Virus record (IMG/VR): IMGVR_UViG_3300035138_000049 | Span: 1-51,505 of that record | Source of the DNA: a virus | Strand: one strand, 5' to 3' | Length of the DNA stretch: 51,505 bases | Shown here: positions 5,028 through 51,505 of the stretch, in pieces | How the letters are laid out: each line of letters begins with the position of its first letter | Numbering within the stretch: the stretch's first letter is position 1 | Position numbers and translations under genes: made by a program | Notes under the pieces: model-generated | Database searches by the model: none | Told to the model about the DNA's origin: nothing | What the model saw: the letters and a program-made list of their open reading frames with translations, nothing else

Positions 5028-5454
5028 GGGCGTTTTTTTGTTGCTTAGCGATAGTCAATGGCGCTTTGTAACGACCATGATTGCCAACCCCGACATGAGC
5101 AAGGCGGAGGCTGCCCGCGCTATTGATCTGAAGCCGCAGACTATTTATGCATGGCCTGAACACGTAGACGAAGCAATCAAAATTGCCCGTCGCGATATTC
5201 ATGAGGCGACCAAAGAGGCGCGGCGACAGGCGTTGCTTGAGGCTATGCGGGTAAAGGTTGGCGGTTTGCGTAGCAAAGATGAGGCTATCGCGCAAAGGGC
5301 GGCTACCGAAATTATTGAGTGGGAACTCGGCAAGGCCGTTCAAGTTCAGGAAATGACGGGTAAGGATGGTTCGGCCATTCGTTTTGAATGGGTAGACCCC
5401 GTGTCTAGGGATGACAACATTGGCATTGGCGCGGACGAATTACCCGACTCTTGA
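4984..5454 (+). CDS. terS: Terminase small subunit
   Basis: The small subunit recognises phage DNA and hands it to the large terminase. The 156-residue protein has an N-terminal helix-turn-helix (MSKAEAARAIDLKPQTIYAW, about residues 38-57), as in homeodomain-like small terminases. A long charged helix (EAIKIARRDIHEATKEARRQ and onward) would form the oligomeric stalk. The ATG at 4984 follows GAGG; an in-frame TTG at 4975 is also possible. It overlaps terL by 44 bases, which is the usual order. The assignment rests on fold pattern and position. Confidence 0.8.
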   Translation: MGHEAQENQDKSTTEGVFLLLSDSQWRFVTTMIANPDMSKAEAARAIDLKPQTIYAWPEHVDEAIKIARRDIHEATKEARRQALLEAMRVKVGGLRSKDEAIAQRAATEIIEWELGKAVQVQEMTGKDGSAIRFEWVDPVSRDDNIGIGADELPDS

Positions 5455-6628
5455 GCGCCCACACGCTGGCGGTCAGCGCGCATTGTACCTGCACCCGGCG
5501 CGGTTTCAGATTGTCGTGTGCGGACGGCGTTGGGGAAAAACGTTGTTTGGCAAGATCGCAGCAGCCCGCACGCTGTTTAGAGACGAACTTGATGTATGGT
5601 GGATATCGCCAACGTACAAGATGAGTAGCCAAGCGTGGCGCGATTTCAAGCGCGCGTTTGGCGCGTTTGCGGTGCGTGCCGATGGTTCGGAGCGGTACAT
5701 GGAATTTGGTAACGGCGCGGCGTTGACCGTGTGGACCGGCGAGCAAGCCGACACGATGCGCGGCGGCGCGCCCGGCCTAGCGGTGGTAGATGAGGCGGCG
5801 ATGATACGCAATGCGGAGATGTGGCCGGCGGTTATACGCCCCGCCCTGACCGACCACAGAGGCCGTGCGCTTTTTTTGTCCACCCCGCGCGGCCGCAACT
5901 GGTTCTGGGAGTTGTACAGTCGCGGCCTTGACCCGCTCTATCCGCAGTATAAAGGGTGGAATTTCCCCACGCGCCACAACCCGACGATACCGGCAAACGA
6001 GATAGACGAGGCGCGACGCACGTTGCCCGACCGCTTGTTTAGGCAAGAATACCTTGCTGAGTTCATCGAGGATGCTGGCGGGGTGTTTCGCGGCGTGTCT
6101 GAAGTGAGCACCGCCGAATACCGCGAACCCTACGAAGGGCAGTTCGTGATGGGGGTGGACTGGGGCAAGTCCAACGACTTCACCGTGATATCGGTGATCG
6201 ACGTGGGCACAATGACTCAGGTGGACATGGACCGCTACAACCAGATTGGGTGGAGTTTGCAGCGCGGGCGGCTGGTCGCGATGTACGAGCGCTGGAAGCC
6301 GTATCGGATCGTTGCGGAAGAAAATAGCTTCGGCGGGCCGAACATTGAACTCCTGCAAAATGAAGGCTTTCCCATTGAGGCGTTTACGACTACGCCACAA
6401 AGCAAGGGGCCGCTAATCGAGGGGTTGGCGCTTGCGATAGAGCGCGGTGAGTTGACACTATTGAATGACCGCGTGCAGGTGGCGGAGTTGCAGGCTTACG
6501 AGATGGAGCGGCTGCCGTCCGGCCGCTTCCGGTACAATGCGCCCGATGGCGGGCACGATGATACGGTTATTGCGCTGGCGCTGGCGTATCATGCGGTTGG
6601 CGCTGGCTCGTGGTACGAGTTCTGGTAG
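5411..6628 (+). CDS. terL: Terminase large subunit
   Basis: This is the ATP-driven motor and nuclease that packages DNA into proheads. The N-terminal ATPase has a Walker A variant CGRRWGKT (about 37-44), Walker B LAVVDEAA and the coupling motif FLSTPRG. The C-terminal RNase H-like nuclease starts with MGVDWGKSNDFTVISVID and has a late metal-binding HDD in GGHDDTVIALALAYHA. At 405 residues it is a compact terminase. It overlaps terS at its start, and the portal fusion begins eight bases after its stop. Confidence 0.95.
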   Translation: MTTLALARTNYPTLERPHAGGQRALYLHPARFQIVVCGRRWGKTLFGKIAAARTLFRDELDVWWISPTYKMSSQAWRDFKRAFGAFAVRADGSERYMEFGNGAALTVWTGEQADTMRGGAPGLAVVDEAAMIRNAEMWPAVIRPALTDHRGRALFLSTPRGRNWFWELYSRGLDPLYPQYKGWNFPTRHNPTIPANEIDEARRTLPDRLFRQEYLAEFIEDAGGVFRGVSEVSTAEYREPYEGQFVMGVDWGKSNDFTVISVIDVGTMTQVDMDRYNQIGWSLQRGRLVAMYERWKPYRIVAEENSFGGPNIELLQNEGFPIEAFTTTPQSKGPLIEGLALAIERGELTLLNDRVQVAELQAYEMERLPSGRFRYNAPDGGHDDTVIALALAYHAVGAGSWYEFW

Positions 6629-6636
6629 GTGACATT

Positions 6637-9600
6637 ATGGGCTTTTTAGACTGGCTGCGCGGGCGCGGGCGCACTACTGCTGAAATTATCCCCCCACAGC
6701 TTTATTTCGTAGACAACGACGGCACGACACGGCCTGTCACCGGCAAGGTAGCGGAGTGGCACGCGCGCGCCACTCGGTCGAGCTTCACGCAAAACTTGAT
6801 CAATTCACTGCTGCGCGACTACACCAACGTGAGCGACGAGCACCTGGCGCGCGCGTACATTCAGAGCGTCACGGCGGCCGCGTGTATCCAGGTTGCCGCC
6901 GATCTCGCTTCGTCCATCCCGGTGCAGGTGGTCGCGCGCGGCACCGAAGAGGTGCTCGAACAGCACCCGCTCGTGGGGTTTGTGGAGGACGCTGAGGATC
7001 TGCTGTGGTTCGTCTCGGTGTGCCAAAATATCTGGGGCCGCGCCTACCTGCGCAAGCGGCGCAACCGGCACGGTTTCAACAGCGGGCTTGAGCCGGTGCG
7101 TCCTATCGATGTAGAGCCAATCGTGCAACCCGACTACGCCGGTCGGGATCGCATCGTCGGGTACTGGGTGCATAACGAGCGCGACCCGGTGCGCGTCGCC
7201 GACATGATCGACCTACCACTGTTCGACCCGTTCGACCGGCTCGGCGGCCTCTCGCCGCTTGAGTTCGTCTTGGTGCAGATCGGCATAGGCCGCAATCTTA
7301 GTATTCACGCCGCGAACTTCTTCTTCAACGGCGCGCGGCTGAGTGGCATTCTCAAAATGCCGGGGGCGTCACCGGACGAGAAGCGAGAAAGCGAGCGGCG
7401 GTTCAACGCCAAACACCAGGGGGCGCGCAACGCCTGGCGGGTGATGGCGACCAGCAGCGCAGAGGCGGGGTTCGAATCTACCCAGGCCGCGCCCGAAGAT
7501 TTGGCAATGCCGGAGCTTTCCGGCCTTGCCGACGCCGCCATTGCCCGCGCTTTCCAGATCGACCCCGTGCTGATCGGGTTGGGGCAGGCAAGCGACCCCT
7601 TGAGCGCGCAGGGCACGTTTAAGGCGATCGAAGCCAACCAGATACGCAGCAAAACGCTGCCGAAGGTGCGGCGCGCGCTCAAGGGTATCTCGCGCCAGTG
7701 GTCGTGGCGCGACTTCCAGCCGGCCAATCTGTACACGCTTGCGCCCGATATCAACAATATCGAGGCGCTCAGCCCGGTCACGTCCGAAAACGTCACGCTG
7801 GTGGAGCAATTGACGGCCAGCGGCAAGGTGACGCTGAACGAGGCGCGGCAGCGGCTCGGCTTTCCGGCGTATGACGGTGACAACGGTGAGGTGGTAGTGA
7901 TTAGCGGTGTGGCGTATCCGGTTTCGCAGATTGCGAAGGTGGCGCGCGAGAATGTGTTGAACATTGGTTTTGGTGCAGGAATGCCGAGCATCGGCGTGCC
8001 CGTCCTGCCGCAGCCGTCCGCCGAGGCCACAGAGCCGCGCCCCGAAAACGTAACGCAAACCGAACCAATGACCGGTATTCAGGTGCAGAACGCGATAGAT
8101 ACGCTGGAGCGCGCCGCCGCCGGATCGCTTGCGCAAGCGGCGGCCGTTGAAATTCTGGTGGCGCTCGGCTTTGACGGCGACCGCGCTGCGCAGATGGTTG
8201 CCGCCCAGATGAATGAGGCGACGACCACAACGGAGGCGCCTGAACCACTGCCGGGAAAAGCTGTGCCCCCGCAACTACCCGAACGCTCCAACGGCGCGCA
8301 GTTGAAGGAGCTTGCCAACTGGGAGGCGAAGGTCGCGCGGTCCACGCCCGACGTGGAGTTCTACCTCGACGCGCTGGCCGGCCACCCGTGCGCCGCGTTC
8401 GTGCGCGAGCGGCTTGAGGCGCGCGACGCCCCCGACGCGGTGTTCTGGGCTGCTCGCGCGTGGCTGGAGACAGGCGCCGCGCCCCCTTTCGCCCAAGCGG
8501 ACGAAGGTCCGCAACGGGCGACGCGAGGAGCCGAGGGTGATTTAGGATTTGGCTTTTGGGTGAGTTTTTCGGGTTCGGGCACTCTCGTCGATCTGCGTGC
8601 CCAGCTCGTCGATACCAACCCCGAAATAGACTGGCTGCACGAGAGCGAGTGGCACTTGTCGCTGTGCTACGCGGCAGAGCCGCAACTGACCAGCGCGATG
8701 GTTCCATTCATCGAAATGGACTACCTCGACATCGACATGCCTTTCGAGGTCGGCGTTGCCGGCCTCGACATCTGGGAGACCCACAAGGGCAACTGTCTGG
8801 TCGTTTTGATCGAGAAGGCGCGAGAGCTGGACGCCCTACAGCGCGCCCTGTGCATGGAATTTGACAACGCAGGTGTGCCCATCAATGACACATCACTGCC
8901 GGAGAATTACACGCCGCACATCACCCTCGCTTATGGTGTGCCCGACAAATTCCTTGAGCGAGACGGGTTGACATATTCCTCGGCAATTTTGACCATCGAT
9001 AATATCCAACTCGTTGACAAAGACGGCGTTTTCAAGGCGTGGCGCCCAAGTCGTGATGTGCCGGGCGAGCTGGTGCCGATGCTTCGCGCTGTCGCCGACG
9101 ACGTTGGTGCGACCCCCGAAGAATTCAAGCGCTACTGGCGACACTTCGACGCGCTCCAGGTGGACCTTGGCGCGGCGTGGCTCGAATGGATGGCGAGCGC
9201 GTGGGTCGGTATCAAGGACGCGCTTTCCGCCAACCCCGAAACGTACACGCCCAAGCTGCCACCCGCTGACGATCTGATACAACAGTGGCTCGGCACGGTT
9301 GACGAGCCAGGGCCTTACATGCAACTGTTTCTGGCCGGCGCCGCTGCTGGCGTTGACGCGCTGGAGACTGAAACGGCGGCGGATTATCGCAGCGTCACAC
9401 GGCAGGCTGACATTGCGATAGACTGGGAGCTGGTCAACCAAAACGCCTACGAGTTCGCGCGGCAGTACATTTTCGAGTGGCTGCCGGAGATCAACGCAAA
9501 AACCGAGCGGCAGCTGCGCCAGGTCATCGTCGAGTGGATCGAGAGCGGTGCGCCGATGGATGATCTGGTGGACACGGTGGAACGGATATTCCACGACCGA

Positions 9601-9882
9601 GAGCGCGCCAAACTGATCGCGCAAACCGAGGGGCTGCGCGCCTACAACGAGGGCGCGTACAACCGGTACGAGGCAGCGGGCGTCACGCAGGCGACATGGC
9701 AGACGGTGACGGATGAGTTCGTATGCCCCATCTGCAAACCCCTGCACGGCGTTGTCGGCGAGTTCCGCGCGGGCTGGGTACACCCCGGCGGGCCGGGCAA
9801 GGGCGCGAAATATAAGGGCCAGGTGTTCCGCCACCCCGCGCATCCCGGCTGCCGGTGCTTTAGCAGACCGAAGGTGCGATGA
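6637..9882 (+). CDS. Portal protein fused to a 2H phosphoesterase and a MuF-type head morphogenesis domain
   Basis: This 1081-residue protein combines three modules. Residues about 1-420 are an HK97-type portal (TEVLEQHPL-like region, PLSAQGTF, GKVTLNEARQRLGFP), which forms the DNA entry ring. Residues about 630-790 are a 2H phosphoesterase: His673 in HLSLCYA and His761 in HITLAYG give the paired H-x-S/T signature. Residues about 900-1081 are a SPP1 gp7/MuF-type domain (IAQTEGLRAYNEGAYNRYEA) ending in CPICKPLHG and HPGCRC metal-binding-like motifs. The ATG at 6637 precedes the portal start; earlier in-frame codons overlap terL. Portal and MuF are often adjacent or fused. The phosphoesterase between them is the odd part. 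It could cleave 2'-5' or cyclic nucleotides, as anti-CBASS Acb1 does, but that is inference. Confidence 0.85.
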   Translation: MGFLDWLRGRGRTTAEIIPPQLYFVDNDGTTRPVTGKVAEWHARATRSSFTQNLINSLLRDYTNVSDEHLARAYIQSVTAAACIQVAADLASSIPVQVVARGTEEVLEQHPLVGFVEDAEDLLWFVSVCQNIWGRAYLRKRRNRHGFNSGLEPVRPIDVEPIVQPDYAGRDRIVGYWVHNERDPVRVADMIDLPLFDPFDRLGGLSPLEFVLVQIGIGRNLSIHAANFFFNGARLSGILKMPGASPDEKRESERRFNAKHQGARNAWRVMATSSAEAGFESTQAAPEDLAMPELSGLADAAIARAFQIDPVLIGLGQASDPLSAQGTFKAIEANQIRSKTLPKVRRALKGISRQWSWRDFQPANLYTLAPDINNIEALSPVTSENVTLVEQLTASGKVTLNEARQRLGFPAYDGDNGEVVVISGVAYPVSQIAKVARENVLNIGFGAGMPSIGVPVLPQPSAEATEPRPENVTQTEPMTGIQVQNAIDTLERAAAGSLAQAAAVEILVALGFDGDRAAQMVAAQMNEATTTTEAPEPLPGKAVPPQLPERSNGAQLKELANWEAKVARSTPDVEFYLDALAGHPCAAFVRERLEARDAPDAVFWAARAWLETGAAPPFAQADEGPQRATRGAEGDLGFGFWVSFSGSGTLVDLRAQLVDTNPEIDWLHESEWHLSLCYAAEPQLTSAMVPFIEMDYLDIDMPFEVGVAGLDIWETHKGNCLVVLIEKARELDALQRALCMEFDNAGVPINDTSLPENYTPHITLAYGVPDKFLERDGLTYSSAILTIDNIQLVDKDGVFKAWRPSRDVPGELVPMLRAVADDVGATPEEFKRYWRHFDALQVDLGAAWLEWMASAWVGIKDALSANPETYTPKLPPADDLIQQWLGTVDEPGPYMQLFLAGAAAGVDALETETAADYRSVTRQADIAIDWELVNQNAYEFARQYIFEWLPEINAKTERQLRQVIVEWIESGAPMDDLVDTVERIFHDRERAKLIAQTEGLRAYNEGAYNRYEAAGVTQATWQTVTDEFVCPICKPLHGVVGEFRAGWVHPGGPGKGAKYKGQVFRHPAHPGCRCFSRPKVR

Positions 9883-10415
9883 TGCCTGACGCCGTTTCTG
9901 TTGATGTCTCGCGTGTGATAGCAGTCCTTGAACGCGTTGCCGCGCTTGACGGTGCGGCGTTCGATAGCATCGCCATGCAGGCTTCGCGCGTGGCCGGCGT
10001 TCGAGCAGAAGAAGCAGTTGGCGAGTACCCGCCACCGAAGCGCGAGCCGATGCCACTCAAGTACACGTGGGCCGATGGCCGGCGATCGAAGTTCAAGAGT
10101 CTGAGCCACCAGCGCGGGTTTTTCTACCTCCTGCGTACCGGCAAAATCCAGATACCGTACAAACGTCGCGGGCGGCTTGGCGCGTCCATCACCAGCGAGC
10201 CTTACGTTCGCGGGCGCGACACCGGATTTCTTATCGGTACGAACAGCGAGTATAACCTGCTCGTGTTAGGCGCACCTGCTCAGGGCCAGGCGCTATATCA
10301 CCAGAACCATTGGACGCCGCTAATTGAGCGGTTGCAACGCGAAAAGGGTGACATTGCGAACGTGTGGGCCGAGGAATTGTTTGGAGGTATCAGGTCGTAT
10401 GTCTTCGGTGGCTGA
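9879..10415 (+). CDS. Putative head-tail/tail completion protein (HK97 gp10-like)
   Basis: This 178-residue protein overlaps the previous stop by four bases (ATGATG start). The central part, PYKRRGRLGASITSEPYVRG, followed by FLIGTNSEYNLLVLG and QALYHQNHW, fits the gp10-like tail completion pattern in which a 'RtGrLr' turn is followed by strands and a conserved Y/H region. That family normally lies between connector and tail-tube genes; here it lies before the capsid gene, so the assignment is tentative. An alternative is a minor virion protein. Confidence 0.5.
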   Translation: MMPDAVSVDVSRVIAVLERVAALDGAAFDSIAMQASRVAGVRAEEAVGEYPPPKREPMPLKYTWADGRRSKFKSLSHQRGFFYLLRTGKIQIPYKRRGRLGASITSEPYVRGRDTGFLIGTNSEYNLLVLGAPAQGQALYHQNHWTPLIERLQREKGDIANVWAEELFGGIRSYVFGG

Positions 10416-10756: not shown

Positions 10757-13099
10757 ATGGCGGATGCTCAAAAACTCAAAGATGCGTTTACCCGGCCCGC
10801 GTGGGTGCATGAATGCATTCGCGACTATATGGCGCAGGGCATGAGTGAGGAGGAGGCTGAAGAGCGTTGCTATGGAGCGTGGCAAAACCGCGCGGAGCGC
10901 TCGGCTCTTCGCCGCGTCAGCCTGGCCGAACCCGAAGGCGTGATTGAGGCATACCTTGCGGTGTGGGGTAGCCACGACCAGCGCGACGACTACGGCACGT
11001 GGTTCGACCGCGAAAAGCCCGCCGAGATGGGCCTCAGATTTTTACCGTTTCCGTTGATGTATGAACACACGTGGGACGGCGAGCTTGGCAACAAAATTAT
11101 CGGCGAGGTGTACGCGATCTGGCCCGACGACGTCGGTATCAAATACCGCGCGCGGCTCGACAAGCAGGGCCTCGACAACGGCGAGTTCCTGCGCATCACG
11201 AGCGAGATACAGCGCGGCGAACTGGGCACGAGCACCGGCAGCGCGCCGCACCTGGCCGAGTTCGACGGCGAGGGCAGGTTCGTCAACTGGCTCATCAGTG
11301 AGGTGACGTTGACGAAAGCGCCGGCGGAAACCCGTATGCCCAGCGCGGTGCTCGTGCGGTCCAAAACAGAACTTATGCAGGATGCGCCAACCGAAGACGG
11401 CCCGCGTGGCTGTGGTGGCGGTTCTGAGAAGAACAATCTTAACGGCAAAGCAGGAGAACAAAGAATGTCAAACAAACCCAAGGGCGCTACCCGGCAGGTG
11501 CCGGTCGAGGCGCTCAACGAAGAACTCGCCGCCGGGCTACAGGCGCTCGTTGACAAGTTCGGAGTCGATGTGGTCCAGGAGGCCATCAAGGCGTTCGCCG
11601 GTGACGGCGAGGAAATTCCGCCGGAGATGCCCGAAGAGATGGCGGCGATGGCAAGCCCGCAGGCCACGCTCTCGGCGCTGAAGGCGAAGGCTGAGGAGAT
11701 CGCCGTCCGCAAACGCGCGGAGGAAGCGACCGCCACGATCCGGGCGCTGAACGACAAGGTAGACGCGCTGACGCTGCGGATGCAGGCTGAGCCGCCCGAA
11801 GAGCCGCCATTGCCCGAATTGCCCGCAGGGGCGACGAGGAGTAGTGGCGGAGCAGGGCGCATTGAGGTGCGCGACTTGCGTTTCCATCACCTGAGCGCCG
11901 CCGAAATGGCGTTCGGCTATCAGGTGCTGCGCGCGGTGCCCTTCGAAAAGCGACAGCGGCAGGCGGTGCTGCCGGTCAGCGATGACTACATGCGCGCGAT
12001 GATGACGAAGGTTCACGCCGAAGCGCAGCGCGGCGACAAGTTGACATCCGAACTCATTTACACCCGCGCCATCCCCTTCACCCGCGCCGACATCATGGGG
12101 AGCGACGTCACCGGCTACGGTGACGAATGGGTCGGGATCTTTTACGAATCCGACCTGTGGGAAAAAATCCGCATCGCCCCGGTGTGGGAGCAGTTCCGCG
12201 CCAAGGGCCTCGTGGAGCGCAGCGTGTCGCGCGGGTACGAAAGCACCCTCATCCCGCTCGAAGGCGACGACCCGACCTGGTACACGATCAGCCAGGCAGT
12301 GAACGTATCTGCCGCCGGCTACCCCGAAGTGCAAGTGCCTGAATCGAAAGTTAGCACTGGGCAGAAATCCATCTCCACCAAGATCGCGGCGGCATACGTG
12401 CCGTTCACCGATAGCCTGACCGAAGACAGCATAGTCGAGGTTGCGCCACAAGTGCGCAGCCAGATGATCGCTTCCGGCCAGGAGCACGTCGAGTACCTGA
12501 TGATCAACGGCGACACCGGCGCCACGAGCGCGAACATCAACACCGACGGCACACCTGCCGCAAACGCGGGATATCTCGCGGCTGACGGCATGTTGAAGCT
12601 GCCGCTCGTCACCAACACCGACAACGCGCGCGACGCCGGCTCCACCTTCGACGAGGACGACTTCCGCTTGCTGTTCCCGCTGCTGGGCACCAACGGAAAG
12701 CACGCAGCCAACCGCGACAAGTTGTTCTTCGTGATCGACTTCAGCGTCCAGGACGCCGCCATCAACATCCCCTCGGTGAAATCCAAGGACGTGTTCAGCG
12801 GGGCCACCATCGAAAGCGGCGAACTGGTGAAAATCTGGCGCGTTGACGTGCTGACCTCCGGCCAGCTCGCCAAAGCCCAGACCGACGGCACGATCAGCGA
12901 CACCGCCGCAAGCAACACGCGCGGTCGCATTCTCCTGACCCGCCCTGACCAGTGGGCCGTCGGGTACAAGCGAGAGATGACGACCGAAATTCAGCGCTGG
13001 GCGCCTGCGTTCACCACGATGATCGTTTGCTCGTTCCGCATTGGCATGGCCTATCGGGACACGTACGCCAGCGCAGTCAGCTACGGCGTGGCCGTGTAA
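10757..13099 (+). CDS. Prohead protease / scaffold / major capsid protein fusion (HK97-like)
   Basis: This is a 780-residue fusion. Residues about 50-205 are an HK97-type serine prohead protease, with His104 in MYEHTWDG, the serine in ELGTSTGSAPH (159 or 162) and an acidic residue in LISEVTLTKAPAE. Residues about 240-360 are a charged coiled-coil delta/scaffold region. Residues about 370-780 are the HK97-fold capsid protein. Between protease and scaffold lies a Gly/Asn-rich linker, followed by an internal ATG at 11465 (Met237) with AGGAG a few bases upstream. The linker looks like a former intergenic space. Separate capsid synthesis from 11465 would supply the many capsid copies, with the full fusion as a minor product. 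The first 42 residues resemble small phage head-assembly helices. Confidence 0.88.
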   Translation: MADAQKLKDAFTRPAWVHECIRDYMAQGMSEEEAEERCYGAWQNRAERSALRRVSLAEPEGVIEAYLAVWGSHDQRDDYGTWFDREKPAEMGLRFLPFPLMYEHTWDGELGNKIIGEVYAIWPDDVGIKYRARLDKQGLDNGEFLRITSEIQRGELGTSTGSAPHLAEFDGEGRFVNWLISEVTLTKAPAETRMPSAVLVRSKTELMQDAPTEDGPRGCGGGSEKNNLNGKAGEQRMSNKPKGATRQVPVEALNEELAAGLQALVDKFGVDVVQEAIKAFAGDGEEIPPEMPEEMAAMASPQATLSALKAKAEEIAVRKRAEEATATIRALNDKVDALTLRMQAEPPEEPPLPELPAGATRSSGGAGRIEVRDLRFHHLSAAEMAFGYQVLRAVPFEKRQRQAVLPVSDDYMRAMMTKVHAEAQRGDKLTSELIYTRAIPFTRADIMGSDVTGYGDEWVGIFYESDLWEKIRIAPVWEQFRAKGLVERSVSRGYESTLIPLEGDDPTWYTISQAVNVSAAGYPEVQVPESKVSTGQKSISTKIAAAYVPFTDSLTEDSIVEVAPQVRSQMIASGQEHVEYLMINGDTGATSANINTDGTPAANAGYLAADGMLKLPLVTNTDNARDAGSTFDEDDFRLLFPLLGTNGKHAANRDKLFFVIDFSVQDAAINIPSVKSKDVFSGATIESGELVKIWRVDVLTSGQLAKAQTDGTISDTAASNTRGRILLTRPDQWAVGYKREMTTEIQRWAPAFTTMIVCSFRIGMAYRDTYASAVSYGVAV

Positions 13100-40416: not shown

Positions 40417-40593
40417 TCACGGTCGATCATGGTACACCTCCGTTTGCAGCGCCTTCACCAGCCGTATCCGGTGCCCAACGAATGGACGTATCCGTTCCAG
40501 GCATTCGGCGCACATATAGACACGGTCGCCGTCGTGGTAGATGACAAGGCGCGTGGCGTCGTTGTGGCAGTTCTTGGTGGCGCAGGTGTTCAT
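40417..40593 (-). CDS. Small Cys-rich protein
   Basis: The 58-residue protein starts at ATG 40593, overlapping the DndC-like stop (ATGA). Cysteines at positions 4, 9, 28 and 31 (NTCATKNCHN, MCAEC) can bind zinc. The C-terminal half is basic (RIRPFVGHRIRLVKALQ). It is part of a coupled run with the DndC-like protein and two zinc-finger proteins. Function unknown. Confidence 0.62.
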   Translation of the reverse strand: MNTCATKNCHNDATRLVIYHDGDRVYMCAECLERIRPFVGHRIRLVKALQTEVYHDRP

Positions 40594-41738
40594 AGCATCA
40601 ACTCCTGAGTGACGAGTTTGCCATCGTCCGTAAGTGCGACGCGGTCCACCGGTTCGTTGCCCGTAGGCTCGTCGCCGTCCCACTTGTTCGGCCAGGTGCC
40701 GGCCGCGATCAACTCCCTGATGCGCGCCAACTCCTCGTCGTTGATCAGGTCCACACCGGCCCGCGCTTGGATATCCAGCACCCGCGCCAGCCCCATCTCG
40801 CGCGCTTCCATCGTCAGCGGCCCAAGCCGCTGCTGGTTTTTCGAATATTGGCCGTCTTTGCGCATCTCCCCGCCTGGTTTGCGGAGACGGTGCTGCGGCG
40901 CTTTCAGTTCGCGGTAGAGGGGCTTGAGTTCGAGCAGTGGGGCCAGGTGCGCCCACTCGTTGGTTTTCACCAGGCCCTCCAGCGCCGTATCCCTATCGAC
41001 GAGGTTGCAGCCGGCGCAGCCCGTGCGCACGTCCCCATCGCCGTAGACGGCCGCGATATCGGCCACGTCGAACCCGTGCTCGCCAAAATAGAGCCAGTCC
41101 CACACGTGGCAAAGCCGCCAGTGCAGGAGCGGGGCCAGCGTGTCGGCCACACTTTCGGGCGTTGCCTGCTGAAACCATCCCTGCCCACACTCGCCGCTGT
41201 CCTTCGAGCACGACAGCGCGATGCGCTGGTCCCGCGCAGCGCTTTCGCCCAATCTCACGCCGGTGAGCATCAGCAGCTTTTCGCCGGTGGCGTCGCGCAA
41301 GTCCTGCAACTCGCGCAGCATCGGCTCGACCTTGAGCTGCGGCGTACACCAGCGAAAGCGGTTTTTCGGCGGGGGCACGCCCCGGCCAAACATGTAGACG
41401 AAAAACCTATCATCCATCTCCGGCAGCACAACGTGCGCCTCAAGGCCCTGCCCGCGCAGTATATCCAGCAGTCGCATGGCCGACTGCTGGAGCGGCGGTA
41501 GTTCCATGCGCGTATCCGCATAAAGAACGGTGAGCGATTCTGGTGGGTCGATCTTGCCGACCTGGATCGCCCACGCCACGAGCGCGACTGTGGCCGTGCT
41601 GTCCTTGCCGCCGGAGTATGCGATTGCCCAGTGACGGTAGCGCTGGCCGTACTCCGCGACGCTGGCGAGGGACAGGTCGATGGCGTCGGTCAGCGTGAGG
41701 CGCTGATCTTCCCAAAGCGACGGCTGTCTCCCGTTCAC
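40590..41738 (-). CDS. DndC-like PP-loop sulfurtransferase / PAPS-reductase family protein
   Basis: This 382-residue protein starts at GTG 41738 (AGGAGA upstream; GTGA overlap). The PP-loop SGGKDST is at 42-48. The YADTRMELPP strand (73-82), FFVYMFGRGVPPPKNRFRWC (112-131) and LTGVRLGESAARDQR (158-172) correspond to DndC, the enzyme that activates the DNA backbone for phosphorothioation. Cys131 plus C177, C184, C241 and C244 could hold an iron-sulfur cluster. No DndA, B, D or E is present. Phages carry many solitary members of this family, whose role is unresolved. It might divert host sulfur chemistry or evade Dnd defence. Confidence 0.75.
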   Translation of the reverse strand: MNGRQPSLWEDQRLTLTDAIDLSLASVAEYGQRYRHWAIAYSGGKDSTATVALVAWAIQVGKIDPPESLTVLYADTRMELPPLQQSAMRLLDILRGQGLEAHVVLPEMDDRFFVYMFGRGVPPPKNRFRWCTPQLKVEPMLRELQDLRDATGEKLLMLTGVRLGESAARDQRIALSCSKDSGECGQGWFQQATPESVADTLAPLLHWRLCHVWDWLYFGEHGFDVADIAAVYGDGDVRTGCAGCNLVDRDTALEGLVKTNEWAHLAPLLELKPLYRELKAPQHRLRKPGGEMRKDGQYSKNQQRLGPLTMEAREMGLARVLDIQARAGVDLINDEELARIRELIAAGTWPNKWDGDEPTGNEPVDRVALTDDGKLVTQELML

Positions 41739-41986
41739 AAAAACGTCTCCTGTATCTCCTCCACCCTCAGCGCCGCGCGCATCTCCGGCTCGCTCTCCAT
41801 CGCGCCTAGCTCGTAGAGCAGGTCGAGCTTTTCGTGGGGATACGCCAGTTTGTCGAGCGCCTTCTCGACGAGCGGCCACAGGTCGGGGTAGCGGCCGGCG
41901 AGCTGGCCTGATGCGACGGCGATGTCGAGTTGATCCTGTAGGAATTCGGACGTTCGACGCCGTGCGATAACTGCATTACCGTTCAT
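41735..41986 (-). CDS. Small helical hypothetical protein
   Basis: The 83-residue protein is mostly helical (RRRTSEFLQDQLDIAVASGQ, DLWPLVEKALDKLAYPHEKL, DLLYELGAMESEPEMRAALR). It overlaps its neighbours by 4 and 11 bases in a tight run ending with the DndC-like gene. It could be a partner of that enzyme. No family recognised. Confidence 0.6.
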   Translation of the reverse strand: MNGNAVIARRRTSEFLQDQLDIAVASGQLAGRYPDLWPLVEKALDKLAYPHEKLDLLYELGAMESEPEMRAALRVEEIQETFL

Positions 41987-50798: not shown

Positions 50799-51505
50799 GC
50801 GAGGCGCCTATTCAAGACGCGGAAGCCGAAGGAGCGGTAATCGGTGCAGTCCTGATCGACCCGGAGCGTCGGTACGATATGGCGTTTCTGGAAGCCAGCG
50901 ACTTCTTCATCGTCCGCCACCGGTGGATCTGGAGCGCGATTCAGCGCCTCCACGCGCGCGGCGACGCCATCGATTACATGACCGTGGTGGACGAGCTTCA
51001 AGCGCACGACCAGCTCGAAGAGGCCGGCGGCCCGGTGTACATCACGCACCTGATCAACAATACGCCGATTTCGCGCCATGCCGAAACCTACGCACGCATC
51101 GTGCAGCGCAGCGCGTACCGCCGGCGGCTGCTAGACGCCATCGGGGAAATCGCAATCCTGGCGCACGACGAAACCACGCCGGTGGAGGAGCTGCACGACC
51201 GGGCGCGGGCATTCGTGGACGGCGCGGCCGGCAACATCGCGACGCGCGATATCGTGACCATGTTCGAGGCGGTGGGCGCGCACGTGGACAAAGTCGTCGC
51301 GGCCCAGGCCGAGCCGGAGGCGGCGCGCGGTATCCCGACCGGGTACGGCAACCTCGACGGTACATTCGATATTCTCAGGGCCAGCAAATTGGTCACGGTG
51401 GCGGGCAGGCCGGGCATGGGCAAGACCTCGCTCATGCTCAACTGGGCAAGCGGTGCCTGGCGCACGGGTGCCCGTGTCGCCTTTTTCAGCCTGGAGATGG
51501 ACACC
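50795..51505 (+). CDS. dnaB: Replicative DNA helicase DnaB, N-terminal part (continues at base 2)
   Basis: ATG 50795 overlaps the previous stop (ATGA). The N-terminal DnaB domain is clear: DAEAEGAVIGAVLIDPERRY, FFIVRHRWIWSAIQRLHARG, LINNTPISRHAETYARIVQR, and the linker helix RRRLLDAIGEIAILAHDETT. The motor domain starts at GIPTGYGNLDG (about 180). The reading frame is open to the window edge and is the same as that of 2-751. The joined product is 444 residues. Confidence 0.96.
   Translation, partial: MSEAPIQDAEAEGAVIGAVLIDPERRYDMAFLEASDFFIVRHRWIWSAIQRLHARGDAIDYMTVVDELQAHDQLEEAGGPVYITHLINNTPISRHAETYARIVQRSAYRRRLLDAIGEIAILAHDETTPVEELHDRARAFVDGAAGNIATRDIVTMFEAVGAHVDKVVAAQAEPEAARGIPTGYGNLDGTFDILRASKLVTVAGRPGMGKTSLMLNWASGAWRTGARVAFFSLEMDT
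51379..51505. repeat. Terminal direct repeat, right copy (circularity overlap)
   Basis: Exact copy of bases 1-127, in the same dnaB codon frame. See the left copy. It shows that the window is a full circular genome opened inside dnaB, just before the Walker A motif. Confidence 0.95.

Follow-up and report, generated by a model that had tools for sequence, protein, structure and literature searches.

Introduction

Acb1, represented by T4 gp57B and the enzyme of Erwinia phage FBB1, cleaves CBASS messengers with a catalytic tetrad of H44/T46/H113/T115 and a stacking residue, W74 (PMC9117128). Its pocket is lined by the base-stacking aromatics Y12, W74, F107 and W147, and E141 contacts the adenine (PMC9117128). 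CBASS cell death is late in onset (PMC9117128). The T4-type enzyme has about 150 residues and stands alone.

2H domains have also been reported on phage head proteins. In the part of Iyer et al. 2017 that deals with them, MuF- or portal-linked 2H domains are proposed to act as RNases or to degrade the signalling nucleotides of immune systems (PMC5512222). The corresponding part of Iyer et al. 2022 returns to the 2H-MuF/portal fusions and proposes that they counter SMODS, cyclic-mononucleotide and CRISPR signalling (PMC9503650). Injected counter-defence was already proposed for these fusions in the same parts of the two papers (PMC5512222, PMC9503650).

In phage SPP1 the portal gp6 directs the MuF protein gp7 into the procapsid interior, and of the virions that lack gp7 only about 25% are infectious (PMC6316719). 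There gp6 and gp7 are separate proteins; one or two copies of gp7 are present, and assembly does not require it. MuF proteins of temperate phages often bear toxin domains as well, according to the part of Jamet et al. 2017 used here (PMC5576092). Below we compare with these systems a viral gene that joins portal, 2H and MuF domains in one chain.

Results

The window analysed is the whole stretch of 51,505 nucleotides, which is one complete virus record. A direct repeat of 127 bases lies at its ends (1-127 and 51379-51505). With a single copy of the repeat, the 444 codons of a DnaB-type helicase gene read without a break over the join. Because of the end repeat and the helicase gene reading through, we take the record as circularly closed, with 51,378 bases. 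The head-tail module contains terminase, portal, capsid and tape-measure genes, and a tyrosine integrase gene is present, which makes the phage temperate. The source is thus a temperate tailed phage.

The fusion gene occupies 6637-9882 on the plus strand. It is a single ORF of 1081 residues with no internal stop, and the open frame around it extends for 1106 codons. The likely ribosome-binding site, GGTAGGTGA (6624-6632, +), overlaps the stop of the terminase gene and is the sole strong Shine-Dalgarno match in the ORF, just 5' of the start at 6637. When the ORF was scanned for internal starts, none with a convincing Shine-Dalgarno sequence was seen before the 2H or the MuF part.

Three domains were recognised in the chain. 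The portal core at residues 79-408 (6871-7860, +) matched PF04860 with 116.5 bits (cut-off 39.1, E 1.8e-33) and phrog_2662 of PHROGs with 1.6e-53; with TIGR01537 (portal_HK97) it scored 76.7 bits, under the cut-off of 112. It is followed by a linker, delimited by composition, at residues 441-615 (7957-8481, +). Stretches rich in P/A/T/S/E/G at about 451-480 and 525-550 of this linker are suggestive of a flexible tether. The 2H phosphoesterase domain covers about residues 635-808 (8539-9060, +) and was located by PF13563, TIGR02258 and a phmmer match to the solved Acb1 9q2g. The C-terminal MuF domain at residues 959-1074 (9511-9858, +) matched PF04233 with 45.7 bits (cut-off 29.6, E 1.3e-11) and phageSPP1_gp7 (TIGR01641) with 38.1 bits, slightly under the cut-off of 39.65. 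Portal and MuF each exceed their curated Pfam cut-offs. The first-pass annotation had read portal, 2H and MuF in one chain of 1081 residues, and the stop-free ORF with Pfam matches for all three confirms that observation. A recent insertion of the 2H part was also considered, as its GC3 of 0.687 seemed low; 684 of 3130 comparable sequence windows are equally low, and this reading was therefore dropped.

In the whole chain, PF13563 (2_5_RNA_ligase2) matched residues 702-796 with 30.9 bits (E 3.4e-7), and the isolated 2H domain scored 36.9 bits; the cut-off is 27. This is the only 2H family cut-off that the domain passed. Because the Pfam match begins C-terminal of His673, the first histidine motif was checked separately. 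TIGR02258 (RNA 2',3'-cyclic phosphodiesterase) aligned residues 649-766 of the whole chain with model positions 16-129 (E 3e-6). The alignments with TIGR02258, with 9q2g (residues 647-768) and with a T4-type Acb1 profile all place both histidine motifs in register, and hhalign to the last profile covered residues 649-775 with a probability of 95-96. The two histidines, HLSL at His673 and HITL at His761, are exactly where the first-pass annotation had placed them.

These two Hx[ST]h motifs occur in the correct order and 88 residues apart. The spacing is about 78-94 in the cellular 2H set and 69 in T4-type Acb1. The first catalytic motif, H673-L-S675 (8653-8661, +), aligns with HxT of Acb1, and the second, H761-I-T763 (8917-8925, +), lies inside YTPHITLAY in the alignment. 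All four tetrad positions (HxS, HxT) are filled by permitted residues; Ser in the first motif is allowed in 2H enzymes, but the published Acb1 tetrad has Thr. Sequence comparison supports the assignment of the middle domain to the 2H phosphoesterase superfamily. The domain did not reach the curated cut-off of TIGR02258 (31.6 versus 65.7 bits) or that of the Acb1 family PF23474 (19.9 versus 27 bits). AlphaFold2 gave very low confidence, with a pLDDT of 31.8 for the 2H domain with an alignment and 37.9 for the full chain from the single sequence. Both models, and the fold search made with the full-chain model, were discarded for their low pLDDT.

The nearest relatives of the 2H domain are Acb1 proteins, at about 25-30% identity. 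In a phmmer search against solved proteins, Acb1 proteins were the only significant relatives, the best being 9q2g (E 1.1e-4). With profiles built here, the domain scored 27.0 bits for Acb1, 12.7 bits for ThpR-type cellular proteins and 18.9 bits for other cellular 2H proteins. None of 200 shuffles of the domain exceeded 2.4 bits with the Acb1 profile. A W-x-[TD]-x-x-[GQ] motif covering the position of W74 is present in 7 of 7 Acb1 proteins and in the fusion chain, and in none of the cellular 2H set. In the fusion it reads W713-E-T-H-K-G (8773-8790, +) and corresponds to WKTDDG, WPTEKG and WTDHKQ of the Acb1 proteins.

In trees from three taxon samples, in which the cellular 2H proteins all come from one bacterial phylum and the 2H domain forms a long branch, the domain joined phage Acb1 with supports of 98/93, 98/97 and 99/97. 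One alternative, in which it groups with cellular 2H proteins, could not be rejected (p-AU 0.087). Cellular 2H proteins used as queries in phage records gave almost no matches, and for that reason the trees hold no further phage 2H lineage.

Among the pocket residues of Acb1, W74 is matched in the alignment by W713, and F640 or W641 falls near Y12. Pro755 apparently takes the position of F107. For the lid, no confident alignment of E141 and W147 with the fusion chain was obtained. With PF23474 below its cut-off, we do not call the domain an Acb1. Taken together, the scores, the trees and the shared W motif favour a domain that would work like Acb1. The hint at Acb1 in the first-pass annotation is strengthened by the sequence search and by the tree supports of 98-99 and 93-97.

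The fusion can be set beside each known system. It shares with Acb1 the two-histidine tetrad, the W74-type W-x-T-x-x-G and YTPHITL. It differs in its distance of about 25-30% identity, in its score under the PF23474 cut-off, in the apparent replacement of F107, in a C-terminal lid that cannot be aligned and in being embedded in a long chain. With ThpR/LigT (TIGR02258, PF13563) it has in common the 2H superfamily and both motifs in register, whereas it scores under the TIGR02258 cut-off and falls outside the ThpR-type proteins in the trees. It lacks the GGFP...RVLWVG region, which most of the ThpR-type proteins compared possess. Like SPP1 gp6 and gp7 it pairs a portal with a MuF partner of the capsid interior, but here the two are fused. 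As in MuF polymorphic toxins, an enzyme domain is linked to MuF in a temperate phage; here the enzyme is N-terminal of MuF, and the part of Jamet et al. 2017 used here notes no 2H toxin (PMC5576092). The polyvalent or packaged effector fusions in the part of Iyer et al. 2017 used here also join 2H to portal and/or MuF in a single polypeptide. The present chain differs from those described in the text of that part by having portal, 2H and MuF all together with 2H in mid-chain. On this comparison, the triple order portal-2H-MuF and the affinity to Acb1 are what the present case adds.

The fusion gene directly follows the terminase large subunit gene (5411-6628, +), which matched phrog_2 (1.5e-37) and, over the cut-off, Terminase_6N and 6C. 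ORF 9879-10415, next after the fusion gene, has no family match. Downstream in the same head module, the major capsid protein chain (10757-13099, +; phrog_617, phrog_1623) has 780 residues. The capsid match lies mostly at residues 523-780; since the first 520 match only phrog_617, and weakly, the capsid protein may carry a fused protease or scaffold. Upstream of the head genes, an HslV/proteasome-like peptidase (1978-2535; phrog_1040, 6e-17) is a candidate for the processing of head proteins. A DNA methyltransferase at 741-1688 (phrog_56, 2.7e-28) is a possible anti-restriction gene. The PAPS-reductase/DndC-like protein at 40590-41879 (-) (phrog_12882, 6.7e-135; PADLOC DndC, 1e-39) is possibly tied to DNA phosphorothioate chemistry or to sulfur metabolism. 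A PADLOC search with the fusion chain gave no match, and the scanned subset of the record's genes showed no recognisable RNA ligase or kinase.

The N-terminal portal part recurs with 65-67% identity in an independent contig, L001, which ends at residue 320. In L001 (1763-4239) the terminase before the portal has no detectable similarity to the terminase of the window (E 0.31). Like portals behind terminases without detectable likeness point to mosaic exchange between terminase and portal. No second copy spanning the 2H-MuF part was found in the sequences searched. Viral contigs searched with the 2H or the MuF part returned nothing or only T4-type Acb1, scans of genome contigs returned nothing or only distant actinobacteria portals, and plasmids searched with the 2H part gave no match. 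Within one phylum, 198 genomes searched with query P0001 and 396 searched with Acb1, the latter without a positive control, yielded no fusion.

Discussion

Portals are dodecamers, and by general portal anatomy the part that follows the core faces the capsid interior. Each portal subunit would continue behind its core, by way of flexible linkers, into a 2H phosphoesterase and a C-terminal MuF head domain. From this anatomy and the example of SPP1 gp6 and gp7, we expect the 2H domain inside the head, together with MuF. Since both are fused to the portal, up to about twelve copies are expected on the capsid-interior side of the ring. The first-pass annotation had put the enzyme at the DNA exit ring, and this placement should give way to the capsid interior.

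The chemistry would be metal-independent and of the two-histidine type, carried out by H673/S675 and H761/T763. Likely substrates, which it would open, are 2'-3' cyclic, 3'-5' cyclic or 2'-5' linked nucleotides or oligonucleotides. The most likely role, to which we give an even chance, is counter-defence, in which the 2H domain would cleave nucleotides against nucleotide-signalled immunity of the CBASS kind as its relative Acb1 does.

If so, the domain may act mainly in the producing cell once portal chains are made, that is, in the late phase, when CBASS responds. Action in the producing cell, during late expression, needs no release step, and a late structural gene would fit a role against CBASS because the cell death is late in onset. 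It had also been argued that a portal-borne enzyme could act at the moment of entry. This does not follow from portal membership; an intact portal is left outside the cell with the emptied capsid, and only a chain that is cut by proteolysis or ejected could have a second role at entry. We are doubtful of the fullest version, in which a virion ring of about twelve Acb1-type 2H domains destroys cyclic-nucleotide alarms in the producer and, once processed, in the next host before phage genes are expressed.

An enzyme directed at RNA is a tentative alternative that we hold to be well short of probable. It would be an RNase or an RNA 2',3'-cyclic phosphodiesterase working on host or phage RNA, such as tRNA ends or CRISPR RNA, and not on signals. 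The sole 2H cut-off passed is that of the general family PF13563, both motifs align with the phosphodiesterase model TIGR02258, and the part of Iyer et al. 2017 on MuF/portal-fused 2H domains suggests an RNase role by analogy with PBECR fusions (PMC5512222). The score for TIGR02258 is far under its cut-off, though, the profile scores and the trees put the domain nearer to Acb1 than to ThpR-type proteins, and the scanned subset of genes contains no recognised RNA ligase or kinase. A 2H fold without catalysis or with a structural task alone, such as holding packaged DNA, nucleotides or scaffold in the head, would suit a position on the interior side of the portal beside MuF. Inactive enzyme domains on MuF are known, and the PBECR domain of Mu gp30 is predicted to be inactive in that same part of the 2017 paper (PMC5512222). 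We consider this unlikely, because the tetrad residues are all permitted in a domain that is otherwise so divergent.

The temperate nature of the phage and the toxin domains often borne by MuF proteins of such phages (PMC5576092, in the part used here) could also recall a toxin-like effector that is sent into the host or into competing bacteria. MuF toxins place the toxin C-terminal to MuF, whereas here MuF ends the chain (to 1074 of 1081), and the general family scans recognised no immunity gene alongside, the next ORF being without a family match. 2H domains are not known to be growth-inhibiting toxins in themselves, and delivery of a toxin is very unlikely. An artefact of metagenome assembly, or an overlooked stop between separate genes, might be suspected because the 2H-MuF part is known in one copy and the independent contig L001 stops short of it. 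The 1106-codon frame without a stop, the ribosome-binding site only at the start, the unremarkable codon composition of the 2H part, the circularly closed record and the published similar fusions leave such an error with next to no likelihood.

As judged from its sequence, the fusion is a real further case of the already predicted 2H-portal/MuF chains, with the Acb1 affinity as the added point. The first-pass annotation, partly supported overall, knew of no described portal with this activity. Such fusions had been reported in 2017 and 2022 in the parts of those papers used here (PMC5512222, PMC9503650); no assay of any 2H-portal or 2H-MuF fusion was found in the literature searched. Should the domain prove active as a cyclic-nucleotide phosphodiesterase, the phage would have a virion-linked counterpart of Acb1, an immune-evasion enzyme tied to an essential structural gene and a concrete protein for the 2017 prediction of 2H on portal/MuF as pre-loaded counter-defence. 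If it is directed at RNA or inert, it would be an ordinary case of effector domains grafted on head proteins.

Two other phage proteins with 2H-like domains were noted. In a 634-kb uncultured phage (L019, 1327-2643), a 438-residue ORF has an N-terminal 2H-like domain and an apparent DnaQ-type (DEDD) exonuclease. For the Acb1-like protein of Burkholderia phage BcepSauron (L067, 2411-2923), GenBank gives the name "prohead protease" and RefSeq "RNA ligase"; both names look doubtful.
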